Shown here: piece after piece, positions 19,482-29,882 of the stretch
How positions within the stretch are numbered: position 1 is the first letter of the stretch
Layout: every line of letters begins with the position of its first letter
Source of the DNA: Candidatus Levybacteria bacterium GW2011_GWA1_37_16
GTDB lineage: Bacteria; Patescibacteriota; Microgenomatia; Levybacterales; UBA12049
DNA: 38,847 nt
Direction of reading: 5' to 3'
NCBI GenBank assembly: GCA_943354875.1
Contig: CALRDJ010000003.1
Coordinates: 1 to 38,847, forward strand
Position numbers and translations under genes: made by a program
Notes under the pieces: model-generated
Databases searched by the model: none
Told to the model about the DNA's origin: nothing
The model's input: only the letters and a program-made list of their open reading frames with translations

Positions 19482-20681
19482 TTAGGCACCGAATAAGTCC
19501 TTTCTGAGATCTTCACGCGCATCTGTTGAGATAATCTCAATGGGTTGGATAGGTTCTCCGACTGCATCTATTTGGATGAGATCAAATTTTTGTTTTCCAC
19601 CTGGATCCTCAAAAGCGAGTGTGTATGTTCCGTTCAGTAGTGAGGTGGCTGCGGCGAACTGGCCGAGCTGGTTGGTTTTAAATGCTCTGACTGGATTTCC
19701 TTCTTGGTCCTGCACTTCTACGAGAATATTTGGCAAAATATTTCCTCGGGAATCCTTTATGATTCCGACGAGTAGATTCGGTGCTTCAGGGGCAGTAGGG
19801 AGTCCGATTCGTACGCCCATTTCTTTCGTAATTTTCCGTACGTTTTGAGAAGGCGCTGGCGTATTTACTCCCTCAGAGGGAGTAAATACTGGTTGGGATT
19901 GACTGAGTTTTTTCGTCATAGACATAAGCTGTTTTTCCAGCTCTGCTTTTTGGGCCATAATCTCTTGGAGTTGTTTTTCAAGCGCTTGGGACTGTTCATG
20001 TGCCACCTCTGCTGTTTTTTGGTCAGTGACCTGTTCTGCAGCTTGGGCGTTTTGAAGCGCTTCAGCTACTTCGAGTGCCCGTTCTTCTAGAACTTTCTCT
20101 TCCTGTGGTACAGAAGGAGGAGGCGTGGCGGGCTGAGGTGCGATAACTACGGGTGTGGGCGCTATTACTATGGGAGCCGGTGCTTCTACGACTGGTTGCT
20201 CGGGTTGTAGTCGTGGGGCAGATAGATTCGTTACGTTTTGAAAAAACTTGAGTTCTTTTTCATCGAGTTTGTTTTGGGTCCTCGGTGTTTTCATTTTTGC
20301 TAAAATATCATCTATCGAGGTCAACTGAGTTTGTCCAGTCGAGTATGTCGAAGTAGATACGGGTGCAGGTATTTGGAAAATCGCTACTTCCCCGCCAATT
20401 TTTTCATAGAGATATCGCTCAGGAACGAATAGCGCTTTTATGAAATTTATAAGCATTATGTCCAGAGGTCTTCCCTCCACAGGCAGAAAGGCGAGTCCAG
20501 CTCCGAGACCCGCCGAAAAAATCATAAAAGGGAGTTTTATGAAAAGAGGGAGGGGAGATGAGAGGAAAAGCCAGGCGATGATGATGCCACCAGCCACATA
20601 TGCGAACTGCTTTATGGTCATATCGCCAATAAGCTTAAACTGGAACCCCGTTATGTCTTGTGGGATAGGATGGTTTTCCAT
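19482..20681 (-). CDS. PrgI family protein with long coiled-coil and C-terminal beta-sandwich-like extension
   Basis: 399 aa; N-terminus IPQDITGFQFKLIGDMTIKQFAYVAGGIIIAWLF is PrgI-like; C-terminus LLVGIIKDSRGNILPNILVEVQDQEGNPVRAFKTNQLGQF resembles carboxypeptidase-regulatory-like fold. Confidence 0.8.
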   Translation of the reverse strand: MENHPIPQDITGFQFKLIGDMTIKQFAYVAGGIIIAWLFLSSPLPLFIKLPFMIFSAGLGAGLAFLPVEGRPLDIMLINFIKALFVPERYLYEKIGGEVAIFQIPAPVSTSTYSTGQTQLTSIDDILAKMKTPRTQNKLDEKELKFFQNVTNLSAPRLQPEQPVVEAPAPIVIAPTPVVIAPQPATPPPSVPQEEKVLEERALEVAEALQNAQAAEQVTDQKTAEVAHEQSQALEKQLQEIMAQKAELEKQLMSMTKKLSQSQPVFTPSEGVNTPAPSQNVRKITKEMGVRIGLPTAPEAPNLLVGIIKDSRGNILPNILVEVQDQEGNPVRAFKTNQLGQFAAATSLLNGTYTLAFEDPGGKQKFDLIQIDAVGEPIQPIEIISTDAREDLRKDLFGA

Positions 20682-20787: not shown

Positions 20788-20892
20788 GCCTGCCCCGTGA
20801 AAAATCGCTCTTTAAGCCGTACTACGAATAGTAGATCCGCTCGAAGAAACTATTTGAGCGGATAAGGCGAGAAGCAAGATGAATGGGGAGGC
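20788..20892. other. structured repeat element, copy A (nested stems, candidate RNA or hairpin element)
   Basis: GCCTGCCCC...GGGGAGGC outer stem; TACTAcgaaTAGTA hairpin; ATCCGCTC...GAGCGGAT hairpin; core shared with 26634-26741. Confidence 0.7.
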
Positions 20893-25781: not shown

Positions 25782-26102
25782 CTATTTACAGTTATCAAAG
25801 CCGAATTGCTTTATGCAGTCAGTTCCCGTAAGTCCTGAGATGAAATTTACTATGAAAAACGATATAAGTATTATAACCAGTCCTATGACTGCGTAGGTGA
25901 GGGTGTTTCTAGCCGAGTCGGCTTGTTTCGGGTCTCCACCAGCAGAGATGTACTTATAGCCCGCGTAGAGTATCATGAACACTGCTACGATCCCAGAAAA
26001 TATTAATAGACCATTCACTACGTTTTGAAATACTGCGGGAATGCACTTCAGGGTGGCCACGCCATTTACTACACAGTCTTTTACTATAATATTCCAATCC
26101 AT
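25782..26102 (-). CDS. VirB2/TrbC-like pilin-type protein
   Basis: 106 aa, two hydrophobic helices around YISAGGDPKQADSARNTLTYAVIGLVIILISFFIVNFISG. Confidence 0.8.
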   Translation of the reverse strand: MDWNIIVKDCVVNGVATLKCIPAVFQNVVNGLLIFSGIVAVFMILYAGYKYISAGGDPKQADSARNTLTYAVIGLVIILISFFIVNFISGLTGTDCIKQFGFDNCK

Positions 26103-26157: not shown

Positions 26158-26574
26158 CTAGTAACCAGGAGCACCAGGGCGAAGGACAGGGATTTGGAGG
26201 TCGGTTAAGCTGACTCCGAATATGCCTCCAATGAATTGGATGATAAAGAATGCGAGAAGAGCGATAACGAGCCCTACGATGGCTGCCACTATGTGATTTC
26301 GTGCTGCGTCCACTGCTGCTTTATCGCCACCTGAAGTAATCCATTTGATGCCCCCATAAATAAGGAAGAAAAGTGCTGCTACAACTGCTACGATAATGAG
26401 AATAGTAATAAGGCGTGATATGAGGCCACCTAACGAGCCAAAATTAAAAGTACAAAGTAGATTAGCAGTTCTTTGATCGCCTCCGCATAAATTAACCGTA
26501 CTCTGTGCAAATGCTGGAGCTGCATAGGAGAGATAAGAGAGAAATCCTGTGGTTATGCCGATAGCTTTTTTCAT
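26158..26574 (-). CDS. VirB2/TrbC-like pilin-type protein with signal peptide
   Basis: 138 aa; signal MKKAIGITTGFLSYLSYAAPAFAQ; WITSGGDKAAVDAARNHIVAAIVGLVIALLAFFIIQFIGGIFG. Confidence 0.85.
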   Translation of the reverse strand: MKKAIGITTGFLSYLSYAAPAFAQSTVNLCGGDQRTANLLCTFNFGSLGGLISRLITILIIVAVVAALFFLIYGGIKWITSGGDKAAVDAARNHIVAAIVGLVIALLAFFIIQFIGGIFGVSLTDLQIPVLRPGAPGY

Positions 26575-26633
26575 TAATCTAATCTAATAACATTTCACTA
26601 TCCTTGTCAAGCCCCTATTCTCTTTGGGGCGTA

Positions 26634-26741
26634 GACCCCTCAACAATCGCTCTTCGAGCCGCGCTACGAATAGTAGGCCTGCCCGAAATGCTTCGCATAT
26701 CGAAGCGGGCGGGTAAGGCGAAAAGTAAGATGTGTGGGGTC
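26634..26741. other. structured repeat element, copy B
   Basis: GACCCC...GGGGTC outer stem; shared blocks AATCGCTCTT, AGCCG, CTACGAATAGTAG, TAAGGCGA, AAGATG with copy A; stem GCCTGCCCG...CGGGCGGGT. Confidence 0.7.
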
Positions 26742-26758
26742 AAGGAGTAAATTCCCCT

Positions 26759-26785
26759 GTCATCCTGAACTTGTTTCAGGATCTC
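26759..26785 (+). repeat. palindromic unit GTC-ATCCTGAA...TTCAGGAT-CTC
   Basis: 8-bp perfect stem; inverted identical 29-bp copy at 27087-27115. Confidence 0.9.
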
Positions 26786-27157: not shown

Positions 27158-27505
27158 TTATGGGGTTCCTTGGGATAAGTCTACTCCAAACAATCCTCCT
27201 ATGAATTGGACGATAAAGAGCGCGAGAAGACCGATTATAAGTCCGATGATGCTGTAGGTGAGGCGATTGCGTGCTGTCTGGAGTGCTTGTTTATCTCCGC
27301 CTGATATAGTCCACTGAATACCACTGTAGATAAGAGAGAAAAGCGCTGCGATGATGACCACGATTATAAATACGGTAATACCGCGCTGGATGATGGCTTG
27401 GCCGGCTCCGCCAGCTTCAAGCCCGCCGGTGGGGATTCCTGTGGGAGCCTGAATGACTACAGGTGTTCCATTCGAACCCGGAATTGATAATGATAGTAAT
27501 CTCAT
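27158..27505 (-). CDS. VirB2/TrbC-like pilin-type protein, N-terminus lacks an obvious signal peptide
   Basis: 115 aa; WTISGGDKQALQTARNRLTYSIIGLIIGLLALFIVQFIGGLFGVDL. Confidence 0.82.
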   Translation of the reverse strand: MRLLSLSIPGSNGTPVVIQAPTGIPTGGLEAGGAGQAIIQRGITVFIIVVIIAALFSLIYSGIQWTISGGDKQALQTARNRLTYSIIGLIIGLLALFIVQFIGGLFGVDLSQGTP

Positions 27506-27510
27506 CGTTT

Positions 27511-27928
27511 GAATTATGAATAAAGAATTATGAATTACGTGATTTAGAGCTTCGTATAAGTCCGTTTGTTATTTTATGAACAATTATCGCTTGTTCTGCA
27601 AGTTTATCATAGTTTTCTTCTGAAATGAAGCCAACGTCCCTGGCAACTAATAGTTGATTTTGAAGTTCAGTAATTGACCCGAGAGATATTGAATAAAACT
27701 GTGTTTTTTCTTTGTAAGATTGTCTGCTAAAGCCTTCCGCAATATTCGAGGTTATGGATATGGCGCATCTTCTCATCTGGCTAACTAGGCCGAAAAGCTC
27801 TTCTTTGGGAAATGTTCCCGTAGTCGAATAAACCATCAAGACTAATTTATGTCCTTCTTTCCAAGCATTCAAATCATGGAATGTCCTAATCCTGCTTTCC
27901 GTAATTCTTAATTCATGCGTCATAATTC
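27511..27928. mobile_element. putative four-helix-bundle (S23/IVP) cassette 1 bounded by 29-bp imperfect inverted repeats
   Basis: Arms 27511-27539 and 27900-27928 match 24/29 after reverse complementing; they contain the gene's stop and start regions. Confidence 0.6.
27528..27923 (-). CDS. four helix bundle protein (S23 / 23S rRNA IVP / Avd-like family)
   Basis: MTHELRITESRIRTFHDLNAWKEGHKLVLMVY...CAISITSNIAEGFSR; start at 27923 (ORF extends to 27947). Confidence 0.88.
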   Translation of the reverse strand: MTHELRITESRIRTFHDLNAWKEGHKLVLMVYSTTGTFPKEELFGLVSQMRRCAISITSNIAEGFSRQSYKEKTQFYSISLGSITELQNQLLVARDVGFISEENYDKLAEQAIIVHKITNGLIRSSKSRNS

Positions 27929-27936
27929 TTGCGAGA

Positions 27937-29328
27937 TCACTTTCCAAATCCCGGGATTTTTAGGATGTCTACTCCTACTACTTGGAGGATGACGAGGGCA
28001 AAGATCATAAACAGAAGTCCGATGACAGCAGAGGTGAGTGTCTCTCGTGCTGCTTTTAGTTTTTCAGGGTCTCCCTGAGAGGTCATAAATCGATAGCCAG
28101 TAGCGATAATTATGAGAAGGAGTATTCCCCCTGCTAGGCTTAGGATGATGGAGAAGATTTTTTTTACAAAATCAGCGGGATTTGTATCGATATCGCCTAT
28201 GGCCGTATTTACCTTCTTGCATTGATAGGTTTTTCCTCCCCATATATCTTTTCCTTCAACCAGGCTATTTTCTGCGCAAGGAAGCTTCATGGTTTGAGGT
28301 CTGGCTGGATCTGGGAGCTTGAAGTCTCCGGCGTTGGCTCTGGAGCATTGAGCTGTTCCTGGCGCAGGGGGTCCGGGGGTAAAGTTTAAGAGGATGCCAT
28401 TTGTATCGCAGTGGGTGGTGGCTATAGAGAGCCCTGAAACTTTATTAAGGCCTAAGGTAAATACAGTGAGGACTACATTTGCTACATCTCCTACATATGT
28501 AGGTCCGTTGCTGAGGACTGTACTCATCTTTTCTATGCAGAACTTTTTACTGCCTACCTCATCTGTCGAGTTTGCAGGGATGGGAAATTCATCGAATATC
28601 GTCTGATTTTTTTTAGTAGTAAATGCTGGTTGGGCAAAGACACCTCCTTCCCACCACCACCAGTAAGTGGTTTCGGGAGATAGATTAGTGATTCGTGAAA
28701 CTTGAGCTACTGTTCCTGCTTGGAAGGTGCATGCATTTTGGGTTACGACGTCTATTTTCGGTAGCGTGGCTTGTGATGCAGTGGGTTTTTTTTTACCAAC
28801 TTGTATGGTAGTTTCGCCAAGAAAGTATTTTTTATCAGTACATTTGCGTATATCAGTAGTCTTACATATGGCTATGGTCCATGGTTGATCTGGGAATTCA
28901 TCTCCAGTAACAAATGATCGTATTCCCGTAAGTCTTTCATGCAACGGCCCTATTAAGCTAATGTCAGTGGTTAATTTGGTAGCAGAAGATGGGGTAACCC
29001 AATGATGGTCAGGTTGACGCGTGACTAATATTCCGCCGCCTTCTTTAAAAAAATTTTCAGGAAACCCTCCAATCTTTGGGTAGGCAAGGACATAATAAGA
29101 TCCTGCAAACGAGCAGTCAGGGTCGCCAGAAATGGTAATACTCATGGTTCCGCTAAAGGTTGCTGGTAGTGGATCGTTGCCAAATAAAGTGTCTGTTGTG
29201 AGAGTGCAGGCGGCATGTGCTGTCGAAGGAGTGCTCAGGAATGTGGAGATTACGAAAAATAACGATAGTACGACAGGCAGAAATCTTCTCACCTCTTCAT
29301 CGTAGCGCAAAAACAGCAGGAATTGCAA
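27937..29328 (-). CDS. secreted/membrane T4SS-associated protein with C-terminal VirB2-like two-helix domain
   Basis: 463 aa; signal peptide FLPVVLSLFFVISTFLSTPSTAHA; C-terminus GGILLLIIIATGYRFMTSQGDPEKLKAARETLTSAVIGLLFMIFALVILQVVG. Confidence 0.75.
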   Translation of the reverse strand: MQFLLFLRYDEEVRRFLPVVLSLFFVISTFLSTPSTAHAACTLTTDTLFGNDPLPATFSGTMSITISGDPDCSFAGSYYVLAYPKIGGFPENFFKEGGGILVTRQPDHHWVTPSSATKLTTDISLIGPLHERLTGIRSFVTGDEFPDQPWTIAICKTTDIRKCTDKKYFLGETTIQVGKKKPTASQATLPKIDVVTQNACTFQAGTVAQVSRITNLSPETTYWWWWEGGVFAQPAFTTKKNQTIFDEFPIPANSTDEVGSKKFCIEKMSTVLSNGPTYVGDVANVVLTVFTLGLNKVSGLSIATTHCDTNGILLNFTPGPPAPGTAQCSRANAGDFKLPDPARPQTMKLPCAENSLVEGKDIWGGKTYQCKKVNTAIGDIDTNPADFVKKIFSIILSLAGGILLLIIIATGYRFMTSQGDPEKLKAARETLTSAVIGLLFMIFALVILQVVGVDILKIPGFGK

Positions 29329-29338
29329 GCAACGTAAC

Positions 29339-29882
29339 TAGACGGTAGAAGGTGGAGAGTTGAAGATAAAGCTTTGACGGTAGAAAATAGATGGTAGAAG
29401 ATAGAATTTTGAAGATTGAAGATGGAGCATAGAATGAATACAATGAGATTGTGATCAGAAGTTTTAAAGACTTAGAAGTTTACCAAGAGTCATATGAACT
29501 TGCTATTTTGGTTAACCGAGAAGTTAACAAATTGCCACTTTTTGAACGAAATGACCTAGGATCGCAACTTCGGAGAGCATCAAAATCCGCGCCTTCAAAT
29601 ATTGCAGAAGGCTGGGCTAAAAGAAGGTTTGAAAAGCAATTTAAGCTACATTTGGATTCAAGCATAGGCTCATGCAATGAAATGGAAGTTCATATAAGCA
29701 TGGCGAGAGATTTAAGTTTTTGGAAAAAAGATTTTTGTGAAAGTCTACTTCAACGATACTTACTGCTTGGTGGGAAAATAACCAACTTAAGAAATAATTG
29801 GAAAACGTTCTAATCTACCTTCTACGTTCTATCTTCAAGTATCTATTCTCCATTTTCTATTATCTACCGTCTACGGTCTATT
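29339..29882. mobile_element. putative four-helix-bundle cassette 2 bounded by degenerate TAGA-rich inverted repeats
   Basis: GACGGTAGAAAATAGA 29376-29391 vs reverse complement of 29856-29871 (GACGGTAGATAATAGA), 15/16; flanks 29339-29435 and 29814-29882 otherwise similar. Confidence 0.58.
29451..29813 (+). CDS. four helix bundle protein (S23 / IVP / Avd-like family)
   Basis: 120 aa; FKDLEVYQESYELAILVNREV...LRRASKSAPSNIAEGWAKR. Confidence 0.9.
   Translation: MIRSFKDLEVYQESYELAILVNREVNKLPLFERNDLGSQLRRASKSAPSNIAEGWAKRRFEKQFKLHLDSSIGSCNEMEVHISMARDLSFWKKDFCESLLQRYLLLGGKITNLRNNWKTF

Follow-up and report, generated by a model that had tools for sequence, protein, structure and literature searches.

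The window analysed here is a stretch of 38,847 nucleotides (nt) of DNA from Candidatus Levybacteria bacterium GW2011_GWA1_37_16, and contains two copies, A and B, of a folded element that lies among genes of a type IV secretion system (T4SS). Both are ordinary members of a much larger family, and their meaning comes from that family, in which the element is found inserted between duplicated gene ends. This insertion anatomy is the main finding, and was missed by the original prediction, which had been made from the letters of the window and described two structured copies that share sequence blocks in a common order. The analysis confirms both (about 20788-20892 and 26634-26741, + strand), and the features of the two sites are as follows.

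19482..20681, − strand: PrgI-family T4SS gene, its start toward the 5′ end of copy A (Pfam E 1.2e-7)
20792..20892, + strand: copy A with its outer stem, atypical owing to an apical hairpin insertion (R1 99.9 bits, E 8.9e-30; R2 47.2 bits)
20835..20863, + strand: apical hairpin inserted in copy A, ATCCGCTC/GAGCGGAT, the variable hairpin of the original prediction (from the alignments; not in the 72-nt core)
26158..26574, − strand: T4SS pilin gene (PF18895), its start toward the 5′ end of copy B (Pfam E 5.8e-7)
26605..26610, − strand: −35-like TTGACA, pointing to the T4SS pilin gene at 26158-26574 and away from copy B
26612..26629, + strand: linking hairpin (hp1) CCCC-TATTCTCTTT-GGGG, directly 5′ of copy B (read in the sequence)
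26630-26633, + strand: CGTA joining hp1 to copy B (read in the sequence)
26634..26741, + strand: copy B, outer stem GACCCC/GGGGTC (R1 119.1 bits, E 5.7e-36; R2 64.2 bits)
26677..26714, + strand: apical hairpin inserted in copy B, GCCTGCCC/GGGCGGGT (from the alignments)
26740..26744, + strand: TCAAG, second copy of a short direct repeat, at or just past the 3′ end of copy B

Copy A is situated between the start of the PrgI-type gene on one side and the stop of the next gene on the other, and copy B upstream of the T4SS pilin promoter, where it is accompanied by a clear linking hairpin and a short GTCAAG repeat. This repeat overlaps the TTGACA at 26605..26610 and recurs at the 3′ end of copy B, where the junction, GGGTCAAG, is the same as that seen again in a promoter class of copies described below. 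Relative to shuffled sequence, the fold of copy A (−47.8 kcal/mol) has z = −5.7 on the + strand and −3.7 on the − strand, and that of copy B has z = −2.3. The T4SS setting that the original prediction gave for copy A is correct insofar as a PrgI-family gene adjoins it, but this neighbourhood is incidental; the element has no tie to T4SS, and the genes that neighbour it are diverse. Three T4SS pilin genes (PF18895) surround copy B on the − strand (25782-26102, 26158-26574 and 27158-27505), and two PF05635 genes for the 23S rRNA intervening-sequence protein (IVP) are found nearby (27528-27947, −; 29451-29813, +). Directly 3′ of copy B, between positions 26760 and 26840 of the window, are the palindromic repeats TGTCATCCTGAACTTGTTTCAGGATC and TCATTGCGATCCCGAT...AATCGGGAGAAGCAATCTC.

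A third copy, from another genus, is recovered with the pattern CTACGAATAGTAG-N24-54-TAAGGCGA. The CTT/AAG helix, which had been predicted to stay paired, is CCG/CGG in this copy. A covariance model built from these three copies, a search that the original prediction had proposed, detects the element in 51 of the 73 genomes of the window's family, with 1-17 copies each and E values down to 1e-34. With a second model, which rests on 22 short copies, the maximum is 24 copies in a single genome, and the genome of the window has four (C3:20792, C3:26634, C23:15495 and C29:5790); 13 of 384 genomes of a phylum-wide sample are positive, two of the 13 lying outside the class. A scan of the complete 922-kb genome G064 gives exactly nine matches at E < 0.01, and an exact-pattern scan places the element in the named genomes of Gottesman-, Levy-, Roizman-, Woese- and Curtissbacteria as well as in other Microgenomates and Patescibacteria records. 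The comparison with Rfam that had likewise been proposed yields no match for the element at the gathering threshold of Rfam 15, and nothing credible at E values up to 10, where the only hit is an implausible snoRNA model (E 4.8) that falls mostly outside the element. Copies A and B thus belong to a large, undescribed family of folded elements of about 72 bases, scattered through Microgenomates genomes of the candidate phyla radiation (CPR).

The core of about 72 nt is rod-shaped, built of 3-bp helices and internal loops rich in purines, with a loop of the GAATA type. Its outer part comprises, in order, a variable outer stem, an ATC/GAT helix, a loop of GCN by NAA and a freely covarying NNN(T)/(A)NNN helix; the inner part comprises tandem GA/GA, a GCC/GGC helix, an asymmetric loop and a 4-bp hairpin whose closing loop is usually GAATA. 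Across 84 distinct copies, pairing holds in 95.7% of cells and double-sided changes occur at 17 of the 19 pairs; the covariation score of 0.557 compares with 0.027-0.070 when the partner strand is slid. The letters of the helices covary and the unpaired letters are constant across copies, which identifies a conserved folded strand. Mismatches of the wobble type are mostly in the outer stem and favour the + strand (106 cells of G.T versus 36 of A.C).

The original prediction had argued that selection maintains the folded shape of an RNA or of single-stranded DNA, a view to be abandoned if further copies showed no covariation. More than 170 further copies are now at hand, and those counted show the opposite, namely strong covariation. 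The outer stem is also real, and its sequence varies from copy to copy. The pair changes in the variable hairpin consist, as predicted, of two full T-A to C-G swaps together with A-T to G-T and C-G to T-G. These compensatory changes are genuine, but the hairpin is not part of the core; it is an extra insertion with no counterpart in most copies, which run from GTAG(G) straight into TAAGGCGA, are about 72 nt long and have no apical hairpin. Extra palindromic hairpins of this kind are carried by some copies (A, B and L001 among them), at the apical junction or within a loop: those of A and B are at the GTAG(G)/TAAGGCGA junction, and L001 has a second one elsewhere.

At no fewer than 18 loci, the element lies between imperfect direct repeats that duplicate the terminus of a gene. 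One repeat (copy 1) is joined to the gene and carries the linking hairpin, and the other (copy 2) is displaced and stands just after the element. When the 24 nt past the element are compared with the 5′ flank, at least 16 positions match in 18 copies, where 2.4 are expected from re-paired flanks, and at least 18 of the 24 match in seven copies, where 0.15 are expected. In the clear cases the match starts at the 3′ end of the element, and the last two bases of the element are usually the same as the two bases before copy 1. A linking hairpin, defined as a perfect arm of at least 6 bp ending no more than 7 nt from the element, is present in 36% of copies versus 7-8% of controls. Visual inspection of individual cases places its 5′ arm close to where copy 1 begins, so that the unit looks like two tandem hairpins, the first of which is made from the target's own end.

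The targets, recognised from their sequences and not via Pfam, are presumably gyrB, rpsI, rpsG, rplL, secA and tsaD at 3′ ends, and mreB, pth and a PHP-domain gene at 5′ ends. In genome G033, rpsI ends in RRKKQSPKR*, which is followed by a short spacer, the element, and then the same residues again in other codons, while in gyrB the element separates two gene ends, KIATLDI* and KVATLDI*. Genome G064 has one end for each of these genes and no element, and the loci are directly comparable because the two genomes belong to one genus; its rpsI and gyrB are thus clean empty sites. Over the 18 coding loci, 84 of the codons that differ between the two ends do so synonymously and 22 non-synonymously, with L041 read in the rplL frame and loci of doubtful frame left out (86:33 when these are included). 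At the level of sequence, these loci demonstrate insertion with duplicated gene ends, with empty sites in a relative, and a divergence between the two gene ends that is mostly synonymous.

Beyond protein genes, the element is located upstream of 16S, 23S and tmRNA, and also downstream of 23S, in the spacer that leads to 5S. A first survey of 71 placements found the gene on the 5′ side of the element to be directed away from it in 51. More generally, the 5′ end of the element faces a gene body, at its start or its end, a 16S or 23S rRNA gene, or a promoter. In about 45 copies, which form the promoter class, the opposite strand reads ...GGGTC-TNCG-hairpin-CTTGACA, which places the element a short way upstream of a −35 box. 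Promoters of the minus strand are most frequent at 20-40 nt from it. The 5′ side faces the gene body for 5′-end and 3′-end insertions alike; for instance, the reverse complement of the element precedes 16S and 23S, and the element itself, on the + strand, follows 23S. This bias is explained by the joining of copy 1 to the gene, which sets the 5′ side of the element toward the gene body at either end. Orientation therefore follows position relative to the gene body, not transcription. Of the two forms of selection that the original prediction had left side by side, the DNA alternative fits better than RNA, because the element keeps one orientation to the gene body, whereas its strand is transcribed at some sites (after 23S rRNA or a stop codon) and not at others (before 16S rRNA or a start codon).

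Several individual sites deserve mention. The dnaX-ybaB spacer contains the element in six genomes and lacks it in others; at L085 and L091, which are such spacers without the element, a simple CCCGCC...GGCGGG hairpin occupies the same place, as if repeat families swap. At L116 the element (448-518) is inside a match to 16S, the small-subunit rRNA, and is the only copy seen within 16S. It may be one of the uncharacterised short (<200 bp) insertions in CPR rRNA genes (PMC11270868). At L052 (about 1402-1572), the 5′ end of a Leu-like tRNA is partly repeated beyond the element. Additionally, another hairpin, AAGAAACTSTAA...SAGTTTCTA, is repeatedly present (L028, L045, L075, L205, L212, L213, L221, L222 and L037) in the interval that separates the element from the start of a downstream gene, which is S21-like in several cases.

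Identity between copies that share a target but come from different genomes is 0.77, compared with 0.70 for different targets in one genome and 0.69 for unrelated pairs (P = 3e-9 for same-target versus unrelated pairs). Because same-target copies are the most alike and same-genome copies resemble unrelated pairs, there have been no bursts within genomes and each site has its own lineage. The lineages of the element are thus target-specific.

Together, we consider it probable that these are site-specific mobile units of non-coding DNA, whose folded strand is recognised and each of which carries a rescue copy of the end of its target. A unit would be composed of copy 1 of the target's end, usually closed by a hairpin, and the 72-nt element, whose + strand folds into the conserved rod. 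Its position would be the precise terminus of a gene, rRNA or promoter, directly before the native sequence that becomes copy 2. Because the codons of copy 1 differ but specify identical amino acids, the gene would stay functional though its native end is displaced, and such rescue would be why insertions in core genes survive. An enzyme provided in trans, perhaps a site-specific recombinase, or a homing nuclease together with recombination, would recognise the folded strand as single-stranded DNA. The re-spelling may persist since it leaves the gene unharmed and makes the two repeats poorer substrates for recombination with each other or for renewed cutting. A unit that brings its own copy 1, inserted where copy 2 served the host gene until recently, best explains why both ends still read as coding sequence; had this been a simple, old duplication of the target site, copy 2 would have been free to decay. 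More tentatively, the unit can be pictured as a homing-like non-coding element of about 115 nt, recognised as a folded DNA strand, that spreads through invasion of the termini of indispensable genes with a synonymously re-spelled rescue copy, which would make it a natural miniature "insert and rescue" element.

A number of points weigh against such mobile units. No present-day mobility is seen, some sites could be old and inherited vertically, and the comparison with candidate enzymes names no mover. A clearly recognisable repeat is found in only a minority of the 175 copies, and copies A and B themselves are without a long gene-end repeat (B has GTCAAG, and A has CGTGAAAA-TAAT, which is at chance level). 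The empty sites come from a comparison of two species, and loss in G064 is possible. Lastly, coding frames were assigned from open reading frames and not from expression, and the excess of G.T was drawn from an alignment fitted to the + strand model.

Three other explanations compete with site-specific mobile units. If the element acted within the transcript of its neighbouring gene, as a cis-regulatory or RNA-processing structure such as a leader, an attenuator or an RNase substrate, this would account for the strong covariation, for the many copies in 5′ leaders or between operon genes, some abutting the Shine-Dalgarno sequence, and for the presence of the element at the same target genes in several genera. 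We regard this reading as unlikely, since the transcribed strand varies, with the reverse complement before 16S and start codons and the element itself after 23S and stop codons, and many copies are upstream of a −35 box and so outside the transcript of the gene they face. It leaves the gene-end duplications and empty sites unexplained, and neither a functional theme among the targets, beyond their being conserved core genes, nor an Rfam match supports it. A riboswitch or leader would further be expected on a constant strand relative to transcription and with one gene class; instead, both strands occur in transcribed positions and the targets include rRNA, tmRNA and unrelated protein genes. 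An independent small RNA of the + strand is rejected as well, as + strand promoters in the 5′ flank number 40 where 37.7 are expected.

It is less likely again that the copies are worn-down attachment ends of larger tyrosine- or serine-integrase elements whose interiors have been lost. Streptococcal integrative and conjugative elements (ICEs) do use the same kind of targets and leave gene-end direct repeats (PMC4701971), but here a single 72-nt sequence serves many unrelated targets, every copy seen is short and none large, and no clear distant first copy of the repeat is present within 40 kb of the elements of G064. We think it improbable indeed that the element is a hairpin like those of repetitive extragenic palindromes (REPs and their paired form, REPINs) or IS200, moved by a Y1 transposase of the REP-associated tyrosine transposase (RAYT) type. 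The folded single strand, the multiple and mainly intergenic copies and a correlation between copy numbers of the element and of Y1 (rho 0.50) all suit such a mover, although the correlation falls to a partial value of 0.24 once other families are controlled for. PF01797 is missing from 15 of the 51 element-bearing genomes, some with 7-11 copies; those without Y1 include G017 (11 copies), G030 (7) and G000 (4). Moreover, the element is within about 1.5 kb at none of 30 Y1 loci, copies in one genome are hardly more alike than copies from different genomes, unlike REP families, and long gene-end repeats are unexpected from Y1 transposition.

Among further candidate movers, the strongest co-occurrence is with IVP (PF05635), which is present in all 35 genomes with at least two elements and correlates with it in copy number (rho 0.72, partial 0.46, uncorrected for phylogeny). 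A clear element is within about 1.5 kb at only two of 30 IVP loci and borders none of them, and IVP is therefore rejected as an embedded mover. IVP is not known to be catalytic, and for these reasons, together with the uncorrected phylogeny, it counts as no more than a lead. Tandem repeats resembling CTAGTTACTAG flank IVP genes and at least one element (L304, L314, L299 and L119). Homing guided by TnpB and its omega-RNA had appeal because the native target sits after a folded scaffold, and is rejected as a general partner, PF07282 being found in only three of the 73 genomes. An own or resident reverse transcriptase is likewise rejected (PF00078 in 19 of 73, with none in the element-rich G033, G090, G071, G014, G010 and G017). 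LAGLIDADG_3 nucleases, in 19 of 73 genomes, are mostly inside long proteins and appear by eye to be unrelated to copy number. GIY-YIG nucleases are found in all genomes (rho 0.61, partial 0.25), and G090, with 13-18 elements, has one GIY-YIG gene; neither family is retained. An inverted pair at L114 is a long perfect inverted repeat near a contig end, and is a probable assembly effect.

If the units are mobile as proposed, they would represent a novel lifestyle for selfish DNA in streamlined genomes, one that strikes the most conserved genes without breaking them and needs no coding capacity. They would also account for part of the structured intergenic DNA of Microgenomates, and provide a testable case for natural rescue by recoding, with many independent insertion sites from which to work out the mover. 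For annotation, they would give warning that the true and the displaced ends of core genes (gyrB, rpsI, rplL and pth) can be side by side.

Among known systems, likenesses are found first to ICEs and integrative and mobilizable elements (IMEs), and then to four other kinds of element. In streptococci, ICEs target the 3′ ends of rplL and rpsI and the 5′ end of ebfC/ybaB, with direct repeats of 12-54 bp that hold the gene end (PMC4701971). The present units resemble them in having similar targets, direct repeats of similar length that contain the gene end, and a gene end restored by the element. ICEs and IMEs, however, are many kb long and encode their own integrase, whereas the unit described here is about 115 nt, is non-coding, with no integrase encoded and no clear distant partner repeat in G064, and has repeats that have diverged mostly synonymously. 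With REPs and REPINs the element shares an intergenic, multi-copy distribution and a plausible recognition of the folded strand, but it differs in its architecture, has no RAYT adjacency, and forms lineages that are target-specific rather than genome-specific. Integron attC sites are folded strands too, in which the unpaired bases are conserved and both the helices and the apical part vary. The element shares this design, but carries a conserved GAATA loop and is not in cassette arrays, and the R′/R″ boxes GTTRRRY/RYYYAAC are not seen at the ends of the aligned copies. Like the 23S intervening sequences and short CPR rRNA insertions, it includes short insertions in rRNA genes and co-occurs with IVP proteins; unlike 23S intervening sequences, most copies flank protein genes and IVP genes are not embedded in the element. 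Rickettsia palindromic elements (RPEs) and other prokaryotic miniature inverted-repeat transposable elements (MITEs) are short, foldable and dispersed, in or next to genes (PMC10969869), and the element is likewise short, foldable and dispersed in and beside genes, but no amplification within genomes is seen here. RPEs, however, are in frame and translated, whereas here the gene end is duplicated and re-spelled, and nothing foreign need be translated.
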